From NCBI RefSeq assembly GCF_003815675.1, contig NZ_CP033918.1, forward strand, positions 2,356,001 to 2,420,000: DNA of 64,000 nt. Direction: 5' to 3'. The translations under genes were made by a program, and so were the position numbers. The stretch is from Chryseobacterium sp. G0186 (GTDB lineage Bacteria > Bacteroidota > Bacteroidia > Flavobacteriales > Weeksellaceae). Shown here one piece after another: positions 30,124-41,974 of this stretch. The notes under the pieces are model-generated. The model did not search any database and was not told where the DNA came from. It saw only the letters and a list, made by a program, of their open reading frames with translations. The number at the start of each line of letters is the position of its first letter. Position 1 is the stretch's first letter.

Positions 30124-31098
30124 TTAAGCATTTTCAAGAATGTAAGAGAACATCAATGGTGCACAGATGGTTGCATCACTTTCAACGATAAACTTCGGTG
30201 TAGTGATATCCAATTTACCCCAAGTAATTTTCTCATTTGGAACTGCTCCGGAATAAGAACCGTAAGATGTTGTAGAATCAGAAATCTGACAGAAGTAAGA
30301 CCAGAAAGGAATGTCATGCATTTCCATATCCTGATACAACATTGGCACTACGCAGATAGGGAAATCTCCGGCGATACCTCCACCAATCTGGAAGAATCCA
30401 ACTCCTTTTCCAGCTGAGTTTTTAGTATACCAGTCAGCAAGGTAAGTCATATATTCAATACCTGACTTCATTGTAGTAGCTGTAAGCTCTCCTTTGATAC
30501 AGTAAGAAGCGAAGATGTTACCCATTGTAGAATCTTCCCATCCTGGTACTACGATTGGTAAGTTGGCTTCTGCAGCAGCAATCATCCAAGAGTTTTCTCT
30601 AGGAATTTCATAATACTGCTCCAATACCCCTGAAAGGATCATTTTGTACATGAATTCGTGAGGGAAATATCTTTCTCCTTTAGCTTCAGCATCTTTCCAG
30701 ATCTCTACGATATGTTTTTGTAATCTTCTGAAAGCTTCTTCTTCAGGAATACAAGTATCTGTAACTCTGTTCAAACCTCTTTCTAAAAGATCCCATTCAT
30801 CCTGAGCAGTCAAATCTCTGTAATGAGGAACTCTTTCATAGTGAGAGTGTGCTACAAGGTTCATTAAATCTTCTTCAAGATTGGCACCTGTACAAGAGAT
30901 AAAATCTACTTTTCCCTGACGGATCATTTCAGCAAGAATCTTTCCTAGTTCAGCAGTAGACATTGCTCCTGCCAAAGTAATCATCATTTTCCCACCATCT
31001 TTAAGATGTGCAACATATCCTTTAGAAGCATCCACCAATGCAGCTGCGTTGAAGTGCAGGTAATACTTTTCTATGAATTCAGTTATCGGTTTGCTCAT
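30124..31098 (-). CDS. Deoxyhypusine synthase family protein
   Basis: The 324-residue protein shares the fold and key segments of deoxyhypusine synthase: the NAD region (KMMITLAGAMSTAELGKILA, SCTGANLEEDL), VVPGWEDSTMGN, FFQIGGGIAGDFP and the catalytic-lysine segment KITWGKLD. In eukaryotes the enzyme modifies eIF5A with spermidine; bacteria lack that target and members here may make homospermidine or another polyamine. I use the ATG at 31098 (MSKPITEFIEKYYLHFNAAA). The upstream extension in frame is not family-like. The true substrate is not known. Confidence 0.9.
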   Translation of the reverse strand: MSKPITEFIEKYYLHFNAAALVDASKGYVAHLKDGGKMMITLAGAMSTAELGKILAEMIRQGKVDFISCTGANLEEDLMNLVAHSHYERVPHYRDLTAQDEWDLLERGLNRVTDTCIPEEEAFRRLQKHIVEIWKDAEAKGERYFPHEFMYKMILSGVLEQYYEIPRENSWMIAAAEANLPIVVPGWEDSTMGNIFASYCIKGELTATTMKSGIEYMTYLADWYTKNSAGKGVGFFQIGGGIAGDFPICVVPMLYQDMEMHDIPFWSYFCQISDSTTSYGSYSGAVPNEKITWGKLDITTPKFIVESDATICAPLMFSYILENA

Positions 31099-31290
31099 TT
31101 TTTTAATTTTTGCAAAGATAAAACTTAAAAACGGAATGCAGCCAACGCACCTGAAGAAAGTCTCATAGAGGGCTCTTTTTTTATCATTTGTTAAATTTGA
31201 AAGTAAAAATTGATAAGACTTAAATGATTTCTGGGTTGTTTCAAACTCTTTGTACACTTACGTTATTTCAACATTTACACCTAAAAAAAA

Positions 31291-33623: not shown

Positions 33624-35243
33624 TCACCAAAATAAAACAGACCTATAGTGTAACGGTAGCACTCCGGTTTTTGGTACCGTCAGTCGGGGTTCGAATCCCT
33701 GTGGGTCTACATAGCAGGAGAAATGATTATTATTATCATTCCTCCTGTTTTTATTTTGTGATAATCCATTGTTAATCTGAAAAACATAGTGAGCTACAGC
33801 ATTAATTCTCGTGGTTCGATAATGATTTTTATCAAATTCAAGCTTTTCAGGAAAAATCGAACCAATAATTTGTCGCTTGACCGCAATATCCCCTTCTGTA
33901 TAGACTTTCCAGATATTTGTAAGCGTTCCTAATGCTTTTTCCAGTAGCTTTGGTATATCTACGTTATTTTCTATTGGCTTGTCATTTAATTGGGTTTCCA
34001 GTTTTTCAACATGGTCTTTATATTCTTTTTTTATTTCAAGATATTCTTCATCAGTAATTACTTCAGAAAGCAATTTATTTCTTGCCAGAGAAATCCTTGA
34101 ATTCAACCTATCTATCTCATCGGATATCTTTTTTCTTTCATCCTGTGGCGCTTTTATAAACTTCTGATAGTTATCCAGAAATACTTTTTCTATAAGCTTT
34201 TTTGCAGGCTCAGTCATTTCCAATTGCTTTAATCCTTCTTCAAAAACTGAATTGATCAATTCTGCTCTAAGGCGGAATCCACAAGTTGCATTGCAATGAT
34301 AATAGTAGTATCTTTTATTTCTCCCTTTTGAAGCGCTTGCAGTAATATTTTTTCCACATTTAGGACATATCAAAAAACCCCGTAATGGAAAATGCTCACC
34401 GGAAAGAATTTTAGTATTAGGTCGCTGAAGTCTCCTTTTACCATCTAGTATTTCTTGCACTCTGTTAAATAGATCTTCACTAATTAAAGCTTCATGCTGA
34501 CCATTTACAAAATGCGCTTCTTCATCTTTGTGTTTTTCTAAAAATACTTTCCCATAGTATATAGGATTTCTTATTGCCACATGAAAAGATGTTCTGCTCA
34601 CCTTTTTAATTGTTAATTCATTGACCCTTTTTCTGATTTGGTTAGAGGCCAATACCCCTTTTGCAATCTCATTAAAAGCCCAGTTCATTGCTGATGCTTC
34701 AGGTTCTTGCAGTACAATATACTTTTCACCATTTTCCCTACTTTTATTAACATAGCCAAATGGTGCCTTTCCCATAACCCTTCCTTCTTTTTTTGCCCTA
34801 CGCATTCCATAAAAAACGTTAAGCGCCCTTCTATCATTTTCGACTTCAGGCGCTGCCAAATAAATTGCAAGCATCATTTTATTTTCAGGAATAGAAAGGT
34901 CTAAAGGCTGGTCAACAGCCTGTGGTTCTATTCCCAATTTTGCAAGTGTACCTATCATTTGATATGCATCCCCAGCATTACGGCTGAAACGGTCCCATTT
35001 AGTAAATAGAATAAGGTTTGTCTTACAACTTTTCTTTTTAAGTGTAGTTAAAAGTCTCATCCAGCCGGGGCGGTTAAATGATTTTGCGGAATGGTCTTCG
35101 TAGATTATTTGTCCAACAGAGATATTGTTAGATGAACAATATTTTTTTAACCGATCCTCCTGATCTCTTTGTGAATATCCTTTGTCTGCCTGTTCATCAG
35201 TAGAAACACGGATGTATAAATCTGCTACCTTCATAATTTTCAT
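33624..35243 (-). CDS. Large serine site-specific recombinase (integrase)
   Basis: The N-terminal resolvase domain (ADLYIRVSTDEQADKGYSQR with the catalytic Ser, then FTKWDRFSRNAGDAYQMIG) is followed by a recombinase domain (KKEGRVMGKAPFGYVNKSRE) and a zinc ribbon (CPKCGKNITA ... YYYHCNATCGFR). A coiled coil (SDEIDRLNSRISLARNKLLS) comes next. The last 40 or so residues (CYVDPQGFEPRLTVPKTG...) are read antisense through the tRNA-Gln gene and its terminator, so they are probably host-derived tail. The enzyme should integrate and excise the island. The native C-terminus is probably near NNGLSQNKN. Confidence 0.92.
   Translation of the reverse strand: MKIMKVADLYIRVSTDEQADKGYSQRDQEDRLKKYCSSNNISVGQIIYEDHSAKSFNRPGWMRLLTTLKKKSCKTNLILFTKWDRFSRNAGDAYQMIGTLAKLGIEPQAVDQPLDLSIPENKMMLAIYLAAPEVENDRRALNVFYGMRRAKKEGRVMGKAPFGYVNKSRENGEKYIVLQEPEASAMNWAFNEIAKGVLASNQIRKRVNELTIKKVSRTSFHVAIRNPIYYGKVFLEKHKDEEAHFVNGQHEALISEDLFNRVQEILDGKRRLQRPNTKILSGEHFPLRGFLICPKCGKNITASASKGRNKRYYYYHCNATCGFRLRAELINSVFEEGLKQLEMTEPAKKLIEKVFLDNYQKFIKAPQDERKKISDEIDRLNSRISLARNKLLSEVITDEEYLEIKKEYKDHVEKLETQLNDKPIENNVDIPKLLEKALGTLTNIWKVYTEGDIAVKRQIIGSIFPEKLEFDKNHYRTTRINAVAHYVFQINNGLSQNKNRRNDNNNHFSCYVDPQGFEPRLTVPKTGVLPLHYRSVLFW
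33639..33709 (+). tRNA. tRNA-Gln (anticodon TTG)
   Basis: The 71-nt cloverleaf has an acceptor stem AGACCTA/TGGGTCT with one G-T pair, a D arm with GTGTAACGGTAGC, an anticodon arm CCGGT-TTTTGGT-ACCGT with anticodon TTG and one mismatch at its base, and a T arm with GGGGTTCGAATCCC. It is followed by A at the discriminator position. CCA is not encoded. The island starts beside it. Confidence 0.95.
33714..33757 (+). terminator. Terminator of tRNA-Gln
   Basis: CAGGAG-AAATGAT pairs with ATCATT-CCTCCTG and is followed by TTTTTATTTT. It lies inside the antisense recombinase frame. Confidence 0.8.
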
Positions 35244-35449: not shown

Positions 35450-35772
35450 AATTTCAAATAAAATTATTAGCGAAATTGAATAATAATTTTATTCGGCTTT
35501 GAAGGAATATCTATGTCTTTTAATGGCTTTATTTAAAAACTAGTATTTTCCATCCACAAAAGAATCGAAGGTTCCACCTTAAAAACATTTAAATTGGATT
35601 ATTATCCATCTACAGCCATGAAGAAATTTTAATTAATCTCTTCCTTTATTCAGAGAAAGTAAATTTCTCCTGATTACATTTATCATCTAATCAATGGCTA
35701 ACCCTCTTGCTTTATTCCTAACATTTCTCTAAAGCGTTTTTATGTTTCTTCTCTGATGTATTTTCTTTCCAT
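35450..35772 (-). pseudogene. Decayed XRE-type regulator of a mobile element
   Basis: Frames on the minus strand together spell a recognisable start (ATG at 35772): KIHQRRNIKTL, then after a shift REMLGIKQEGLAID, followed by shorter fragments. This resembles the XRE-type proteins with MLGIKQE that accompany the small protein just downstream. Several frameshifts and stops interrupt it. It should be non-functional. Confidence 0.55.
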
Positions 35773-35879
35773 ATCATACATACAAAAAAAGAGCCCACGC
35801 CGTTGTATATACAGTAAGTATTTAGTGAGTGTTTTTAAGACCTCACCCTGCGGGTGTACAAGCACCCTCTTATTTTTTT
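35773..35879 (-). ncRNA. Candidate guide RNA gene downstream of the Cas12f-like gene
   Basis: This 107-bp gap starts at the stop codon of the Cas12f-like gene. On the minus strand it can fold as GGGTG-CTTGTA-CACCC, then GTGAG...CTCAC, then the palindrome TGTATATACA, followed by AC. After that comes a GC-rich 11-mer (GGCGTGGGCTC) and T7. In TnpB- and Cas12f-type loci the guide RNA often lies just 3' of the protein gene on the same strand with the guide at its 3' end; here the guide would begin near GGCGTGGG. On the plus strand the same hairpin plus T-run looks like an ordinary terminator, so the call is uncertain. Confidence 0.35.
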
Positions 35880-36974
35880 CTATCCAATGATCAATTCAAT
35901 TCCGGCTTTTTCAGCTTTGTATTTTATTTTGGTCTGCAATTCATAATAACTCCAATTACGAAGTATGAATTCGTTATCTTTTGCAATCCCGATCTTGTCT
36001 TCCTGATTTTTAATAACGAGTGTGCCCGCTTGTTGCCGGATGCAGAAATTTATAAGCTGCCGACTGTACACATGAAGACGATTGCTTACGTATCTACTTT
36101 CCAGATTCTTTGTTTTATACAATGCCTTTTGTTTCCGTTTTACTCCATTTCCTGAACGGGCATAGACTACACCGTCTTGAATTCTTTTTTGACTTGCCTG
36201 AATTGCGAGCCTGCGATACAAAAACTCTTCTTTTGAGCCAATATTGATTCGCACATTGCCAGCTTTTGCAACTATTGGATGTTCCAGAGACAAGGATGCT
36301 TCAGCAATAATTTCGGGTTTTAAAAGATGTTCTTCTTTTTCAAATTCAAATACTGCGAGCCAATAGATTTTCCTGTCATTAAGTTGTATCTGTGATGTAC
36401 AAAGCTTTATTTCCTCCCTTAAAAGGCGCTCTATTATAAGACGCTTATCGGAGAAGTCTCTGCCTAAATACGTTTTAACCGGAATAGCAAACATGTTGAA
36501 GCAAAATGCTTTTTTTTCAGGATCATATCTCATTTTACTGATGCATTTAATCGGAAGTGGGATTGGAATGTCTCTTTTATAATTTCTAAGTGATTTTGTT
36601 CCCTGCCAATAATCGGCTTTGTTTTTAGAGAAAGTTGATTGAATTGTATTGTTAAGGCTTCCCAGAATATCTGTCGGGATTTCCCCTTTGAATCGGTCAA
36701 AAACCATTCTTGCTGTGCTGTTTGTTTTCGAACGGTCAAACATTCCCATCTGATCTTTTTTTTCATCAGCTAACTTGTATTGTATTTCTTCGGTGAGGTA
36801 AAAGAAATCTTTGATCATTTCCTGAACATACAAATGGGAAGCTATTAAGTTTGCCGCTCGGAAACAGCGGTTCTGATACCGATAAAGTTTTTCCCACATT
36901 TCTTTTTTTTGATCGGATGGAACATCGATCAATAACTGAATTTTTCGGGTCAGTGTTGTTGTGGATTTTTCCAT
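35880..36974 (-). CDS. Nuclease-dead Cas12f/TnpB-like protein (dCas12f-like)
   Basis: This 364-residue protein shows Cas12f/TnpB architecture: a helical N-terminal half, a beta/wedge-like middle (FCFNMFAIPVKTYLGRDFSD), then the RuvC region. Diagnostic segments are GNGVKRKQKALYKTKN, SNRLHVYSRQLINFCIRQQA and LRNWSYYELQTKIKYKAEKA. Where active members have Asp in RuvC-I (GIDLG), this one has N244 (VRINIG). Where RuvC-II has Glu, it has K322 (LVIKNQ). It ends at residue 364, before the zinc-finger and RuvC-III Asp. It should bind RNA and DNA but not cut. It is 1 nt downstream of a sigma-factor gene, which points to a role in transcription. Family assignment is by eye. Confidence 0.85.
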   Translation of the reverse strand: MEKSTTTLTRKIQLLIDVPSDQKKEMWEKLYRYQNRCFRAANLIASHLYVQEMIKDFFYLTEEIQYKLADEKKDQMGMFDRSKTNSTARMVFDRFKGEIPTDILGSLNNTIQSTFSKNKADYWQGTKSLRNYKRDIPIPLPIKCISKMRYDPEKKAFCFNMFAIPVKTYLGRDFSDKRLIIERLLREEIKLCTSQIQLNDRKIYWLAVFEFEKEEHLLKPEIIAEASLSLEHPIVAKAGNVRINIGSKEEFLYRRLAIQASQKRIQDGVVYARSGNGVKRKQKALYKTKNLESRYVSNRLHVYSRQLINFCIRQQAGTLVIKNQEDKIGIAKDNEFILRNWSYYELQTKIKYKAEKAGIELIIG

Positions 36975-36975
36975 A

Positions 36976-37791
36976 TCAAGTAATTATTTCAGAGTTGTTT
37001 CGATTCTGTAAATATTGATAAGCATAAAGAAACTCCTGGTGAACTTCTTTTTCAGAAAGTTTCAGTTCTAGTGCAATGAGAGCAAAAGAAGATTTCTGTT
37101 CAAATCTTCTATTTATAATGTCGAGTTGCTGACTACTGAGTTTTTCAGTTTGCTCTTTGTTACCGAAAGCTTTTTCCGGTGGATGTTCTAAAGAACTTCT
37201 ATTAAGAATTTTCCGAAGATCATTTATAGCTCTGCTCACCTCATTGCTGATGCCTGTCACACTACTTCCCATTGCTTCTGCGATCGGTTTGTATTGAAAA
37301 CCATATTCAAGACAAAGTTCAATAAGGTGTTTTCTTTTGGGATCGAGTATGTTTACAACCTTTTTAACTTCATTAAATTTCTTTTGTTCAGATTCCTGAT
37401 TCAGAAGATTCTCTTTATCATTCTGGGGATCAAAACCTATAAGATAATCCTGATAGTTCTCAAAACTTTCAAGTGATGCCGTTAAGCGTTCGAATTTATT
37501 TTTCGGAGCAGTAAAATACGACATACAGTCTCTTTTCAAAACAAACCGTAAAAAGCCAAGAATATGATTCGGAGTTTCAATGGAATCACGATGTAGCCAA
37601 AGTTTGAGAAAAGTATCCTGAACAAGCGTTTCTACTACAAAATCATCATCAAGCATTTGTTTTCCGAGCCAGAAAAGAAGTCTTTTGTATCGTAAATAAA
37701 TATGTTCCAAAGAGATCGGATTACCTTTTTTCAGCAACTCATATAGCTGGTTATCATTCAACATACGAGGCAAAGAGTGTGTTCTTTTCAT
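36976..37791 (-). CDS. ECF-like RNA polymerase sigma factor with C-terminal extension
   Basis: This is a sigma-70 family protein of 271 residues. Region 2 lies at about residues 24-90 (IYLRYKRLLFWLGKQMLDDD, then LVQDTFLKLWLHRDSI), and region 4 at about 145-195 (ILDPKRKHLIELCLEYG, YKPIAEAMGSSVTGISNEVS). ECF factors are usually about 170-200 residues; here roughly 75 extra residues follow (SSQQLDIINRRFEQKSSFAL, then LKLSEKEVHQEFLYAYQYLQ), possibly a second helical DNA- or protein-binding unit. No anti-sigma gene is adjacent. The dCas12f-like gene follows after 1 nt, so the products probably act together. Confidence 0.88.
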   Translation of the reverse strand: MKRTHSLPRMLNDNQLYELLKKGNPISLEHIYLRYKRLLFWLGKQMLDDDFVVETLVQDTFLKLWLHRDSIETPNHILGFLRFVLKRDCMSYFTAPKNKFERLTASLESFENYQDYLIGFDPQNDKENLLNQESEQKKFNEVKKVVNILDPKRKHLIELCLEYGFQYKPIAEAMGSSVTGISNEVSRAINDLRKILNRSSLEHPPEKAFGNKEQTEKLSSQQLDIINRRFEQKSSFALIALELKLSEKEVHQEFLYAYQYLQNRNNSEIIT

Positions 37792-37893: not shown

Positions 37894-38317
37894 AAATTTG
37901 TCTGGTTTTAAGTTTTTAATCTCATAACTAGTTGCTTTCTCTACCCATTAGGGGGAGTAATTTCTTTCTTAGGCTTGGACATCTTGATTGATATCAGTAA
38001 TATTTTTTTCGCCTAAAAAAATCTATAAACTCCTATTCTTTTACCTTTAAAGCATCAAAATTTGGTAGTTGTAGCGCAAAATACTACTTTTAAGGTGAGA
38101 GTTTAAAAGATAACCGACTTTAAGAGCTGGGGTATTTTGTAAATCCATGTTGAAACATACCTCACTTTAATGTTAGGTATGGAGCTAATGGTCTTTTTAT
38201 TGCAAATGGTGGATTAACCTGCCGGTGGTTCTTTAATTGGAATGTTGGATAATTTCGTTCTCATATTAACTATTTTAAATGTTGGTATAGAACGATATTT
38301 TCTGTATGAAAAATTTC

Positions 38318-38426
38318 CTTGTAAAAAAGCAAGGAGCGGTCACACGTTTTGGGCTCATGGGCGACCAACCCAACTTTAAACCGTAAGATTTAAAAGTTCC
38401 AACCACAAATTAACGTGAGAACCGCC
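38318..38426 (-). ncRNA. Structured region, candidate non-coding RNA
   Basis: A long outer stem (GCGGTTCTCACGTT near 38412-38425, minus strand, with AACGTGTGACCGC near 38337-38349) encloses two further hairpins: AACTTTTAAA/TTTAAAGTT and TTGGG/CCCAA. On the minus strand it is followed by CTCCTTGCTTTTTT, which could end transcription. This multi-branched fold lies about 530 bp upstream of the sigma gene and about 190 bp from the divergent HTH gene. It could be a guide/tracr-like RNA, a regulatory RNA or a DNA structure for transfer. Confidence 0.4.
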
Positions 38427-38529
38427 CTCATGCCGTATGCAAAGTTAGTCAACTTTTAGACATGGAGCGATATCACGGTCATCTCAGTTGGAAATTGGTC
38501 GTTTTGAGCTGAGAAAACATCGTCAATTA

Positions 38530-38618: not shown

Positions 38619-38963
38619 ATGGAGAAAATTATTCAATTTGAAACGACTCAATTTGATTTGGATCTAATAGAGCATATCAAAACTTTGAGAAAATTAAAAA
38701 ATATCACCAAAGAAAAGCTAAGTTTATTAATGGGAGTTTCAAAAACATTTGTTGGAAATGTTGAATCTTATACTCAACGACATAAATATTCCACTAGACA
38801 TATTACATTGTTGGCAAACGCTTTCGATTTTGATAATATTTCTCAATTATTAGACTTCCCAACTCCCAAGTATGATAAAATAAAAGTTACCATTAAGCAA
38901 ACTCTGAATGAGAGTGGCACCAAGGTGGTTCATAATGAAGTCATGAAAATAGAAGCGCTCTAA
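38619..38963 (+). CDS. Helix-turn-helix protein of the island
   Basis: The 114-residue protein has an XRE-like HTH in its first 70 residues (IKTLRKLKNITKEKLSLLMG, then VSKTFVGNVESYTQRHKYST) and a short beta-like C-terminus (IKVTIKQTLNESGTKVVHNE). Two perfect palindromes lie directly upstream, so it probably represses itself and perhaps the divergent sigma/dCas12f operon region. It is not a recognised phage repressor. Confidence 0.75.
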   Translation: MEKIIQFETTQFDLDLIEHIKTLRKLKNITKEKLSLLMGVSKTFVGNVESYTQRHKYSTRHITLLANAFDFDNISQLLDFPTPKYDKIKVTIKQTLNESGTKVVHNEVMKIEAL

Positions 38964-39326: not shown

Positions 39327-40493
39327 CTACTGGGACCTTTTTATCTTTTTCCTTTTTTGTTGAACCGGAACATCTTCGGTATTATAATGTATCCCACGAT
39401 TATCAATGCTCAGCAATGAAAAGATTTCTAAGCTACTGTCAGGATTTTTAAAAATCTCCTCCAGTGACGAAAAAGGAATATTATTTTTTTCAGAAACTTG
39501 TTTACAAATACTGTCAAGTATTGCTATAATTTTTTCTTTGGTTGTATCGAATAATTTTGGCTGTTTAAATTTTTCAAACTGTATGACTTTTATAATCGTA
39601 TCCTTTACTGAATTGAAATAAATCTCCTTTTCCTTGCTATATGTTGTAATGTTAGACAGAATACAAGAAAGCTTGTTTTTTAATAGTGAAACTTCTTTGT
39701 TTAAGTCTATATTCTTTTGTTGAAGTTCAGTAATTATTTTAGTTTTGGATTGAAGAATTTCTTTATTTTTAAGTAGTTCTGCATTATATGATTTAAAAAC
39801 TCTCTCGTAATTTTCAATCGTTTTATCTGTTTTGATCTTTCTAAAGCCTAAGAAGTCATTTTCCTTTACAATAAGATCTTCAAACTTTTTAGAATCAAGC
39901 TGTGCCTTCATTTCAGTTATTCTATTGTTTAGCAACAAAAGCTCTTCTTCTTTTTTTTGAATTTTAAATTCTATGGCTTCAAGCCGCCCTCTAGAGCCCG
40001 AAATTCCTCTATCCATTTCGAGACATTCTGCGGTAATATCCTGCATTTTGGAATAGTGAAAGGATTGATGCTTCAATGTTTTTCCAGTTTCTAAATCCTG
40101 CCAGTCGGCTACCAAATGAGCATGATAATTAGGTCTCCACTCTTTAGAGTCTTTATCGTAATGTCCTTCATCCTTATGAATTGCAATTTGAAAAATTCTT
40201 ATTTTCAGTTCTTCTTCAAGCCTTTTAGAAAGCTTATGCAAATCCTGCATCGTTGTATTTTCTTTAATTACAACTACAGCTTCACGAATTGGCAATGCAT
40301 TTTTTTGTAATTTTCTTCCAGACTTTTCCTTGCAATACGCTTCTATTGACCTAAATCTATCTGAAACTTTATCTCCTACCCAATACTCATTTTTTCCGGT
40401 AAGATCCGTTTTAATATAATCGAAGTTTTTTTTTCTGAAATTGTGCGCTTCAGAACCTGTTTTGACTGCCTTAAAATTGATAGATGTTTTCAC
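39327..40493 (-). CDS. MobV/Pre-type relaxase (plasmid or element mobilisation)
   Basis: The 388-residue protein has an N-terminal HUH-endonuclease domain. The metal-binding segment is WRPNYHAHLVADWQD (HxH), with upstream AVVVIKENTTMQDLHKLSKR and IFQIAIHKDEGHY. From residue 170 on it is a long coiled coil (EAIEFKIQKKEEELLLLNNR ...). This matches relaxases of the MobV/Mob_Pre type, which nick oriT and start transfer by a helper conjugation system. It suggests that the island, or part of it, is mobilisable. No coupling protein or type IV secretion genes are in the window. Confidence 0.85.
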   Translation of the reverse strand: MKTSINFKAVKTGSEAHNFRKKNFDYIKTDLTGKNEYWVGDKVSDRFRSIEAYCKEKSGRKLQKNALPIREAVVVIKENTTMQDLHKLSKRLEEELKIRIFQIAIHKDEGHYDKDSKEWRPNYHAHLVADWQDLETGKTLKHQSFHYSKMQDITAECLEMDRGISGSRGRLEAIEFKIQKKEEELLLLNNRITEMKAQLDSKKFEDLIVKENDFLGFRKIKTDKTIENYERVFKSYNAELLKNKEILQSKTKIITELQQKNIDLNKEVSLLKNKLSCILSNITTYSKEKEIYFNSVKDTIIKVIQFEKFKQPKLFDTTKEKIIAILDSICKQVSEKNNIPFSSLEEIFKNPDSSLEIFSLLSIDNRGIHYNTEDVPVQQKRKKIKRSQ

Positions 40494-41290: not shown

Positions 41291-41974
41291 ATGCTATATA
41301 AAGAAACTGTCACTAAGGACATGTGGGAACTTCTACAGCGACTGATGAAAGATAAAATGCTAAAAGATTTTATTTTGGTAGGCGGTACCGCTTTAGCCTT
41401 AAAATTAGGGCATAGATTATCTGTAGATATTGATTTGTTTACTACAAGGGATTTTGACTCAAGCGCCTTAATACACCACTTACAAAAAGAATACGAAGCG
41501 ACTAACGAAATTGTTTTTGAGAATACCATAATGACTTATATTAATGATATAAAAGTTGATCTTTTAGCTCATAAATATCCTGTCATAGCAATGGATAAAA
41601 TCTCAGAAAATATAAGAATGATTTCTAATGACGACATTGGTGCTATGAAACTTCATGCAATATTTCAAAGTGGAGAAAGGTTAAAGGATTTTGTAGACAT
41701 GTATTTTCTTCTCGAAGAAAAACCCTTGCAGTCATATTTAAATAGCTACCAGATAAAATACAACGGAAATCCATATTTATCCGCACGTTCATTGATCTAC
41801 TTTGATGGAATAAGAAAAGAATATGATGTTTCAATGGTTCACGGAAAAGAGAACAAATGGAAAAGAATGCAGGAAAGACTTAAGAAAGCTGTACTAAATC
41901 CTAATCTGAAATTTGGAAATTCAGCTGAAAAAAAAGTTGTTCTAAAAAACAAAGGAAAGGGAGTTAGAAGATAA
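41291..41974 (+). CDS. AbiEii-like nucleotidyltransferase toxin
   Basis: This 227-residue protein of the nucleotidyltransferase AbiEii/AbiGii family has the NTase signature FILVGGTALALKLGHRLSVDIDLFT (Gly-Gly-Thr plus DxD), then VDLLAHKYPV with a third acidic residue, and IGAMKLHAIFQSGERLKDFVD. Family toxins transfer nucleotides to tRNA and cause growth arrest or phage-induced abortive infection. The downstream gene is its likely antitoxin. Confidence 0.88.
   Translation: MLYKETVTKDMWELLQRLMKDKMLKDFILVGGTALALKLGHRLSVDIDLFTTRDFDSSALIHHLQKEYEATNEIVFENTIMTYINDIKVDLLAHKYPVIAMDKISENIRMISNDDIGAMKLHAIFQSGERLKDFVDMYFLLEEKPLQSYLNSYQIKYNGNPYLSARSLIYFDGIRKEYDVSMVHGKENKWKRMQERLKKAVLNPNLKFGNSAEKKVVLKNKGKGVRR

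Follow-up and report, generated by a model that had tools for sequence, protein, structure and literature searches.

An adjoining guide RNA probably points a Chryseobacterium sigma factor-dCas12f pair to a structured leader of nutrient-receptor operons: a probable RNA-guided transcription activator

Nuclease-dead Cas12f proteins (dCas12f) encoded beside a sigma factor reportedly carry out RNA-guided transcription with a minimal 5'-G motif; we did not find an account of this in the open PMC literature. The published system is said to target DNA and to recruit RNA polymerase, the start site being set by the distance from the R-loop. Here we describe such a gene pair in a 64,000-nucleotide (nt) stretch of Chryseobacterium sp. 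G0186 (NZ_CP033918.1, positions 2,356,001 to 2,420,000), which we call the window and in whose coordinates features are given. It resembles the dCas12f/sigma-E system of Flavobacteriia (PDB 9n9c, 9n9m, 9n9o and 9n9q) in both proteins, in the gene pair and in the adjoining guide RNA, and a G beside its proposed target would, in one of two possible registers, fit the 5'-G motif. It differs in that its kin have one nearly invariant short guide core matching a family of leaders, and in that some related loci carry tandem guide-RNA arrays. There is also a likeness to the TnpB-like nuclease-dead repressors (TldR), which are RNA-guided and, as described in PMC13418256, likewise join a nuclease-dead RuvC protein to a guide RNA to regulate transcription. 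TldR are derived from TnpB, whereas the window protein is nearer Cas12f, its best matches being dCas12f and Cas12f chains. We know of no TldR with a sigma partner; the window has one. Active Cas12f nucleases (9nzo, 8dzj and others) are of the same family by sequence, but the window protein, with Asp and Glu replaced and without zinc finger or RuvC-III, lacks the RuvC Asp-Glu-Asp set and zinc finger of an active Cas12f/TnpB nuclease, and it is accompanied by one guide RNA only, although no search was made for an array of clustered regularly interspaced short palindromic repeats (CRISPR).

The two genes are minus-strand open reading frames (ORFs), 36976-37791 (271 amino acids) and 35880-36974 (364 amino acids), separated, as the initial annotation had it, by a single base (36975). 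The first encodes an extracytoplasmic-function (ECF)-type sigma factor. Pfam places region 2 at residues 32-93 and region 4 at 141-189, both of them anticipated, and adds a C-terminal region-4-like stretch at 217-252. With these regions and a match to the NCBIfam profile sigma70-ECF (64.4 bits, cut-off 42.9), the protein has the features of Bacteroidetes ECF sigma factors; its match to Sig70_bacteroi1 falls under the cut-off (92.6 against 126.4 bits). In phmmer, residues 17-263 match 9n9q_C, 'RpoE', with E 4.5e-77. The second gene had been called Cas12f/TnpB-like, and indeed residues 1-364 match 9n9c_A, 'Nuclease-deactivated Cas12f', with E 6e-159 (phmmer); Cas12f chains of known structure also match, as does NCBIfam guided_TnpB under its cut-off (E 2.6e-15). 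Alignment to the active Cas12f 9nzo_B puts S227 (in AEASLS) opposite the RuvC-I Asp of VGVDLG and K322 opposite the RuvC-II Glu of QMER, these Asp and Glu being the catalytic residues of the family. K322 was thus rightly identified at the outset, whereas N244, first proposed for the RuvC-I position, is ruled out. The protein stops at residue 364, ahead of the zinc finger and RuvC-III, as had also been noted, and the verdict that this C-terminally short Cas12f homologue is nuclease-dead stands, judged from S227, K322 and the missing C-terminal part.

Because PDB entry 9n9q lists both a dCas12f chain and an 'RpoE' chain, and the window proteins match them over nearly their whole length, the two are homologues of the partners of one solved complex. 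Their linkage is conserved. We collected 59 related loci from genome contigs, nearly all of Chryseobacterium and its kin, and in 56 of them a sigma homologue ends at most 60 nt upstream of dCas12f; the other three lack upstream sequence (L052 and L059) or hold only a partial dCas12f (L060). On sequence grounds, the pair falls within the known class of RNA-guided transcription systems.

Directly downstream of dCas12f lies a guide RNA (35784-35869, minus strand). The span first assigned to the system, 35880 to 37791, takes in both genes and misses this RNA. Its 68-nt scaffold (35802-35869), ending in GTATATACAAC, is followed by the guide GGCGTGGGCTC (35791-35801) and by a T-run (35784-35790) that is probably the 3' end. 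The guide's probable register, from its sequence and the related loci, is a G followed by GCGTGGGCTC, with the first G on the target-adjacent position. Alignment and consensus folding of 16 scaffold copies predict three stems; two-sided changes occur in 4 of the 16 pairs, and the other 12 vary little or not at all. A scaffold of the same kind stands at the same place in the 59 related loci, which marks it as the probable cognate guide RNA, and 57 of them share the scaffold end and the guide core GGCGTGGG. The two without that core are L005, where the scaffold is interrupted, and L052, from Leeuwenhoekiella, which has TGCGTGAGT. Among 60 genomes of the genus, the scaffold is present in exactly the 15 that have dCas12f and in none of the 45 that do not, and 19 of its 20 copies adjoin a dCas12f match. 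The twentieth (L352, G011:C22:504409) is an orphan whose guide is one base short (GGCGTGGCTC). What looks by eye like the final eight codons, at least, of a dCas12f gene (AGIELIIG) comes before it; a scripted test of this locus for three longer dCas12f motifs found none. Tandem arrays of two to four guide RNAs with differing guides occur at L033 (7110-7584), L044 (7110-7525), L312, L314, L315, L316 and L317, those of L033, L044 and L312 having three units. XRE-like coding remnants lie straight after the guide RNA in L009, L017 and L042 (tblastn) and, by eye, in the window at about 35700-35775 on the minus strand.

The guide has a small and coherent set of matches in its own genome. Exact copies of GGCGTGGGCTC other than the guide itself number three (C1:1271647, C1:2467833 and C1:4465352), against about 0.2 expected from composition at an assumed GC content of 0.36, and all three lie inside one long, shared, structured leader element. 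The pattern GGCGTGGGYTY has five exact sites: the guide RNA, the three leaders and one other place (C1:2492790). Two of the leaders stand ahead of SusC/SusD operons with S9-peptidase genes and the third ahead of a 174-amino-acid protein. The SusC, SusD and S9-peptidase families were tested for one of these operons; the second has a SusC with 70% identity to that of the first, a SusD recognized by eye and a peptidase match under cut-off. Upstream of each leader is a short divergent gene. One of these has a Pfam helix-turn-helix match above cut-off, one has a match below it, and the third has none but resembles XRE-like genes by tblastn. Because the guide exactly matches a conserved stretch ahead of nutrient-receptor genes, the trio of sigma factor, dCas12f and guide RNA would likely bring RNA polymerase there and switch the genes on. 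We therefore favor, with a probability of roughly 0.68, the reading that the trio is an RNA-guided transcription activator whose guide pairs with a G followed by GCGTGGGCTC in the leader DNA of probably XRE-controlled SusC/SusD operons. The 9n9q matches, the conserved adjoining guide RNA and the coherent genomic matches together lend support to the RNA-guided transcription that the initial annotation had proposed for the pair.

To survey this leader, which we call type I, we built a covariance model, R1, from 35 examples. It finds 149 copies in 52 of the 60 genus genomes, under stricter filters with which weak copies may be missed. The first ORFs behind these 149 leaders are SusC-like in 39 cases, of the 174-amino-acid family in 54 (both in 5), sigma-dCas12f in 13 and unclassified in 48; in the set of related loci, a leader precedes 44 of the 59 sigma-dCas12f operons (R1, E <=0.01). 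A sigma start codon lies 168-180 nt past the guide-like site (13 leaders); for SusC the distance, measured in 26 of 39 leaders, is 415-496 nt, the 13 left out including duplicates, units with another ORF first, and L205, whose start is farther off. The leader loci are L180-L298 and L130-L159, the own-genome copies being the three named above. L255-L298 form a low-scoring subgroup in which a gene often starts about 50 nt downstream, the products being, by eye, response-regulator-like or secreted-looking. The 174-amino-acid family (L337:3892-4413 and 53 further loci) is the commonest gene behind the leader and has no Pfam or NCBIfam match.

Several lines of evidence argue that the leader is a real RNA structure. 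For 95 of the 160 leaders, which include 90 distinct sequences, covariation scores 0.332, whereas shuffled alignments reach 0.102 and slid ones at most 0.038. Pairing holds in 98.5% of cells, and two-sided changes are seen at 19 of the 35 pairs. Further pair types show no excess (51 against 50.4 in shuffles), and because the alignment was fitted to the structure, these figures lean towards it. In the tip hairpin, the guide sequence makes up the 3' arm (strand 2), which is better kept than the bases preceding it and can pair with strand 1 or, alternatively, with a later strand 3. The target leader thus shares with transcription attenuators and riboswitch leaders its covarying stems, the alternative pairing of one strand and a T-run, but differs from them in having no credible Rfam match and in sharing its switch strand with a guide RNA. 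When the three own-genome leaders were compared with 4227 Rfam families, only matches under cut-off appeared, none credible. A transfer-messenger RNA (tmRNA) candidate in L044 was dropped, the Rfam match being under the family cut-off and ARAGORN finding no tmRNA there; the remaining weak Rfam matches are to microRNA families, well under cut-off.

Since the guide copies strand 2, the guide RNA might instead act on the leader RNA, pairing in trans with strand 1 or strand 3, disturbing a terminator-like fold and so causing read-through. Strand 2 can pair with both partners, and a T-run follows the end of the leader model in 132 of 149 copies, compared with 339 of 2900 random stretches. In the 33 of 160 leaders with an unusual strand 2, moreover, the leader's own strand 3 is a better partner for it than the canonical strand 3 in 22 cases, as good in 5 and poorer in 6. 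No such preference exists for strand 1, however, where the leader's own strand has the better fit in just 14 cases, against 6 ties and 13 with a poorer fit. In the distant system G137, the guide's match continues beyond strand 2 to take in CTTATT, for which strand 3 has no complement; the guides of another, G374, match a different site near a start codon; the solved relatives include a dCas12f-sigma complex; and the published system reportedly targets DNA. We consider action on the RNA unlikely.

The position of the site bears on a further alternative. A TAnnTTTG promoter-like box lies upstream of it in 131 of the 149 leaders, 97-123 nt away with a median of 101 nt, whereas such a box occurs in 2.4% of random 60-nt stretches. 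At this distance the site is probably inside the transcribed leader, a position where blocking of the CRISPR-interference kind works, and dCas12f could be a TldR-like road-block to transcripts from the promoter about 100 bp upstream, with the sigma factor serving some other end. Yet a repressor would not need the sigma homologue that directly precedes dCas12f in 56 of 59 loci, and the solved relative of this sigma factor sits in a complex with dCas12f. A road-block therefore seems to us distinctly improbable beside recruitment of RNA polymerase.

More distant systems allow the relation between guide and leader to be followed further. Across the order, 24 of the 395 genomes have dCas12f, one of them by a marginal match (E 3.4e-4). 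Five systems, 59-63% identical and from another family, make up with L052 a set of six loci and 13 guide RNAs, one to four per locus. In nine of the 13, a GCGTGRG, GCGCGAG or GCGTGAC core begins 0-2 bases past the scaffold end. R1 finds leaders in all six genomes, 11 in total, of which four are upstream of sigma-dCas12f. All six matches of a degenerate strand-2 pattern fall in leaders, and they come from five of these genomes; the reversed pattern matches nowhere. G398 has no match to this pattern; its guide 2 (GCGTGACAT) matches a deviant leader, L334, in which strands 1 and 3 are changed too and behind which a SusC-like ORF (by eye) follows about 1 kilobase downstream. The guides of G374 match, instead of a leader, a hairpin 79 nt before the start codon of a gene that is SusC-like by eye, and 15 nt of its guide 3 are found nowhere in the genome but at this site and in the guide RNA.

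A number of observations nevertheless weigh against the activator reading. The matches are of modest length, 10-12 nt. By R1, the window has no type-I leader, at its own operon or elsewhere. As many as 100 of the 149 leaders are in genomes without dCas12f, and a guide-like strand of at least 10 of 11 nt is kept in 85 of these 100, as it is in 45 of the 49 from dCas12f genomes, so that the target is not conserved because of the sigma-dCas12f system. Among the distant guides, four of the 13 (guide 1 of G425 and three of G374) lack the leader core, and guide 1 of G425 has no convincing match near its leaders. Leaving these four out, we compared the contiguous match of ten guides, the window's and the remaining nine, in their own and in other leaders. 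The own leader is better for three, clearly so for G398 guide 2 (9 against 5) and by one base for G398 guides 3 and 4 (6 against 5). It is equal for four (the window, 11; G425, 11; G349 guide 1, 7; G398 guide 1, 3) and worse for three (G137, 10 against 16; G349 guide 2 and G440, each 5 against 6). Most distant guides fit their own leaders no better than those of others. Finally, if the guide starts right after ACAAC, the preceding leader base is mostly A (98 of the 138 leaders matching at 9 or more positions), so that a fit to the G motif requires a shift by one base.

That shift was taken up only after the distant guides had been seen. They support the later start, as in L313, where ACAAC is followed directly by GCGTGGG. 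With the later start, GCGTGGG is preceded by a G in 146 of 149 leaders, at sites that were picked with this G in the query. A second-type site in L126, described below, is compatible with both registers, and the register of the 5'-G target motif is uncertain by one base. A search for G plus GGCGTGGGYTY, with the guide taken to start directly after ACAAC, was abandoned: the reversed pattern gave about 42 matches and the pattern itself 15, in 14 of the 60 genomes, mostly within long open frames. L091 and L103 among these are leaders, and L098 is leader-like by eye and is not matched by R1.

A third alternative is that guide and leader are alike only through shared ancestry, or because of a fixed RNA 3' end, with the real targets lying elsewhere. 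Leaders do exist without dCas12f, the guide core is the same in 57 of 59 loci despite different surroundings, and the fit of most distant guides is no better at home. But guides do change, since the three-unit arrays carry others, and two distant guides, in G398 and G374, follow sites in their own genomes upstream of SusC-like genes. The base lost from the orphan guide of G011 also looks, in this one case, as if a guide were kept only for a working dCas12f. We regard this alternative as very improbable.

If the activator reading is right, the SusC/SusD operons would be under XRE control. The guide RNA would load onto dCas12f, and this complex would open the leader DNA at the G followed by GCGTGGGCTC, forming an R-loop. 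The sigma factor would then recruit RNA polymerase to start downstream of the R-loop, as is reported for the published system. Transcripts of this kind would be missing the leader's 5' half, to which strand 2, the guide-like one, belongs along with the strands nearest the promoter. In this way the complex would circumvent the promoter some 100 bp upstream as well as a putative RNA switch based on pairing of strand 2 with either strand 1 or strand 3; because the promoter-proximal half would be absent, neither control at that promoter nor a strand 2:3 terminator could act. In most relatives the leader also precedes the sigma-dCas12f operon, which would create positive feedback. The window operon has a different leader, so the window copy is probably not self-activating, and we rejected its autoregulation through a type-I site on the R1 result. 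More tentatively, and with the odds against it, we suggest that this CRISPR-derived sigma factor complex overrides a whole class of RNA switches: one family-wide guide would copy the switching strand of an apparently undescribed leader RNA and so find every leader-bearing operon, and R-loop starts, by removing the promoter-proximal half of the switch, would force nutrient-receptor operons, and usually the regulator itself, on.

The different leader of the window operon (38320-38447, minus strand, identified by sequence) is of a second type, with similar copies in L007, L014, L026 and L057. It has a TAACTTTG box, then CATG followed by AGGGCGGTTCTC, an arm that can pair with CGTGTGACCGCTCC ahead of a T-run, and it is unmatched by the system's own guide. 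A possible leader peptide, MRTKLSNIPIKEPPAG, is encoded at 38214-38264 (minus strand), and a similar peptide was seen by eye upstream in L007. Second-type leaders, with a long stem and a T-run beside a divergent gene, were noted in the window (38214-38447) and in L007, L014, L026, L057, L126 and L128; downstream, several copies have a tiny ORF (MRTKLSNIPIKEPPAG or similar). The extra guides of the L033 and L044 arrays resemble the stem of this leader, and one of them matches a second-type leader (L126) at 12 of 12 nt, after a G, as its sole exact 12-nt match. Second-type targets in G060 and G061 were also sought through GRGCGGTTYTC and given up, with 23 matches against 12 in the control; two of the 23 are second-type leaders, three are the guide RNAs themselves, and long open frames account for 16 of the remaining 18. 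Likewise rejected was a match of L033 guide 1 in G060 (TGAGCGGTTTTC and four T), which looks like the arm of an intrinsic terminator.

The divergent gene beside the window operon (38619-38963, plus strand) encodes an XRE-type helix-turn-helix protein (Pfam HTH_3, 22.9 bits, cut-off 23) and probably regulates the operon; with five proteins of this kind as tblastn queries, XRE-like genes are found upstream in 46 of the 59 related loci. Flanking the pair are a serine recombinase (33624-35243), a MobA/VirD2-like relaxase under cut-off (39327-40493) and an AbiEii-type nucleotidyltransferase (41291-41974), and the pair possibly sits on a mobile island. Farther off, the window encodes a deoxyhypusine-synthase-like protein (30124-31257; Pfam DS, E 7.8e-42), here in a bacterium.

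Within the open PMC literature, in which our search found no description of the leader, the family-wide guide, the leader family as its target and the multi-guide arrays are new, and part of this may already be in print. The sigma-dCas12f pair is of a known kind, and specific candidate targets can now be named for testing: the three leaders of its own genome, along with a leader family that most of the Chryseobacterium genomes examined possess. The work further reveals a leader RNA that is structured, covaries strongly and has no credible match in Rfam. If the proposed targeting is true, an RNA-guided activator would have settled on one conserved element, its regulon run by a single short guide, in contrast to CRISPR arrays, whose spacers ever change.

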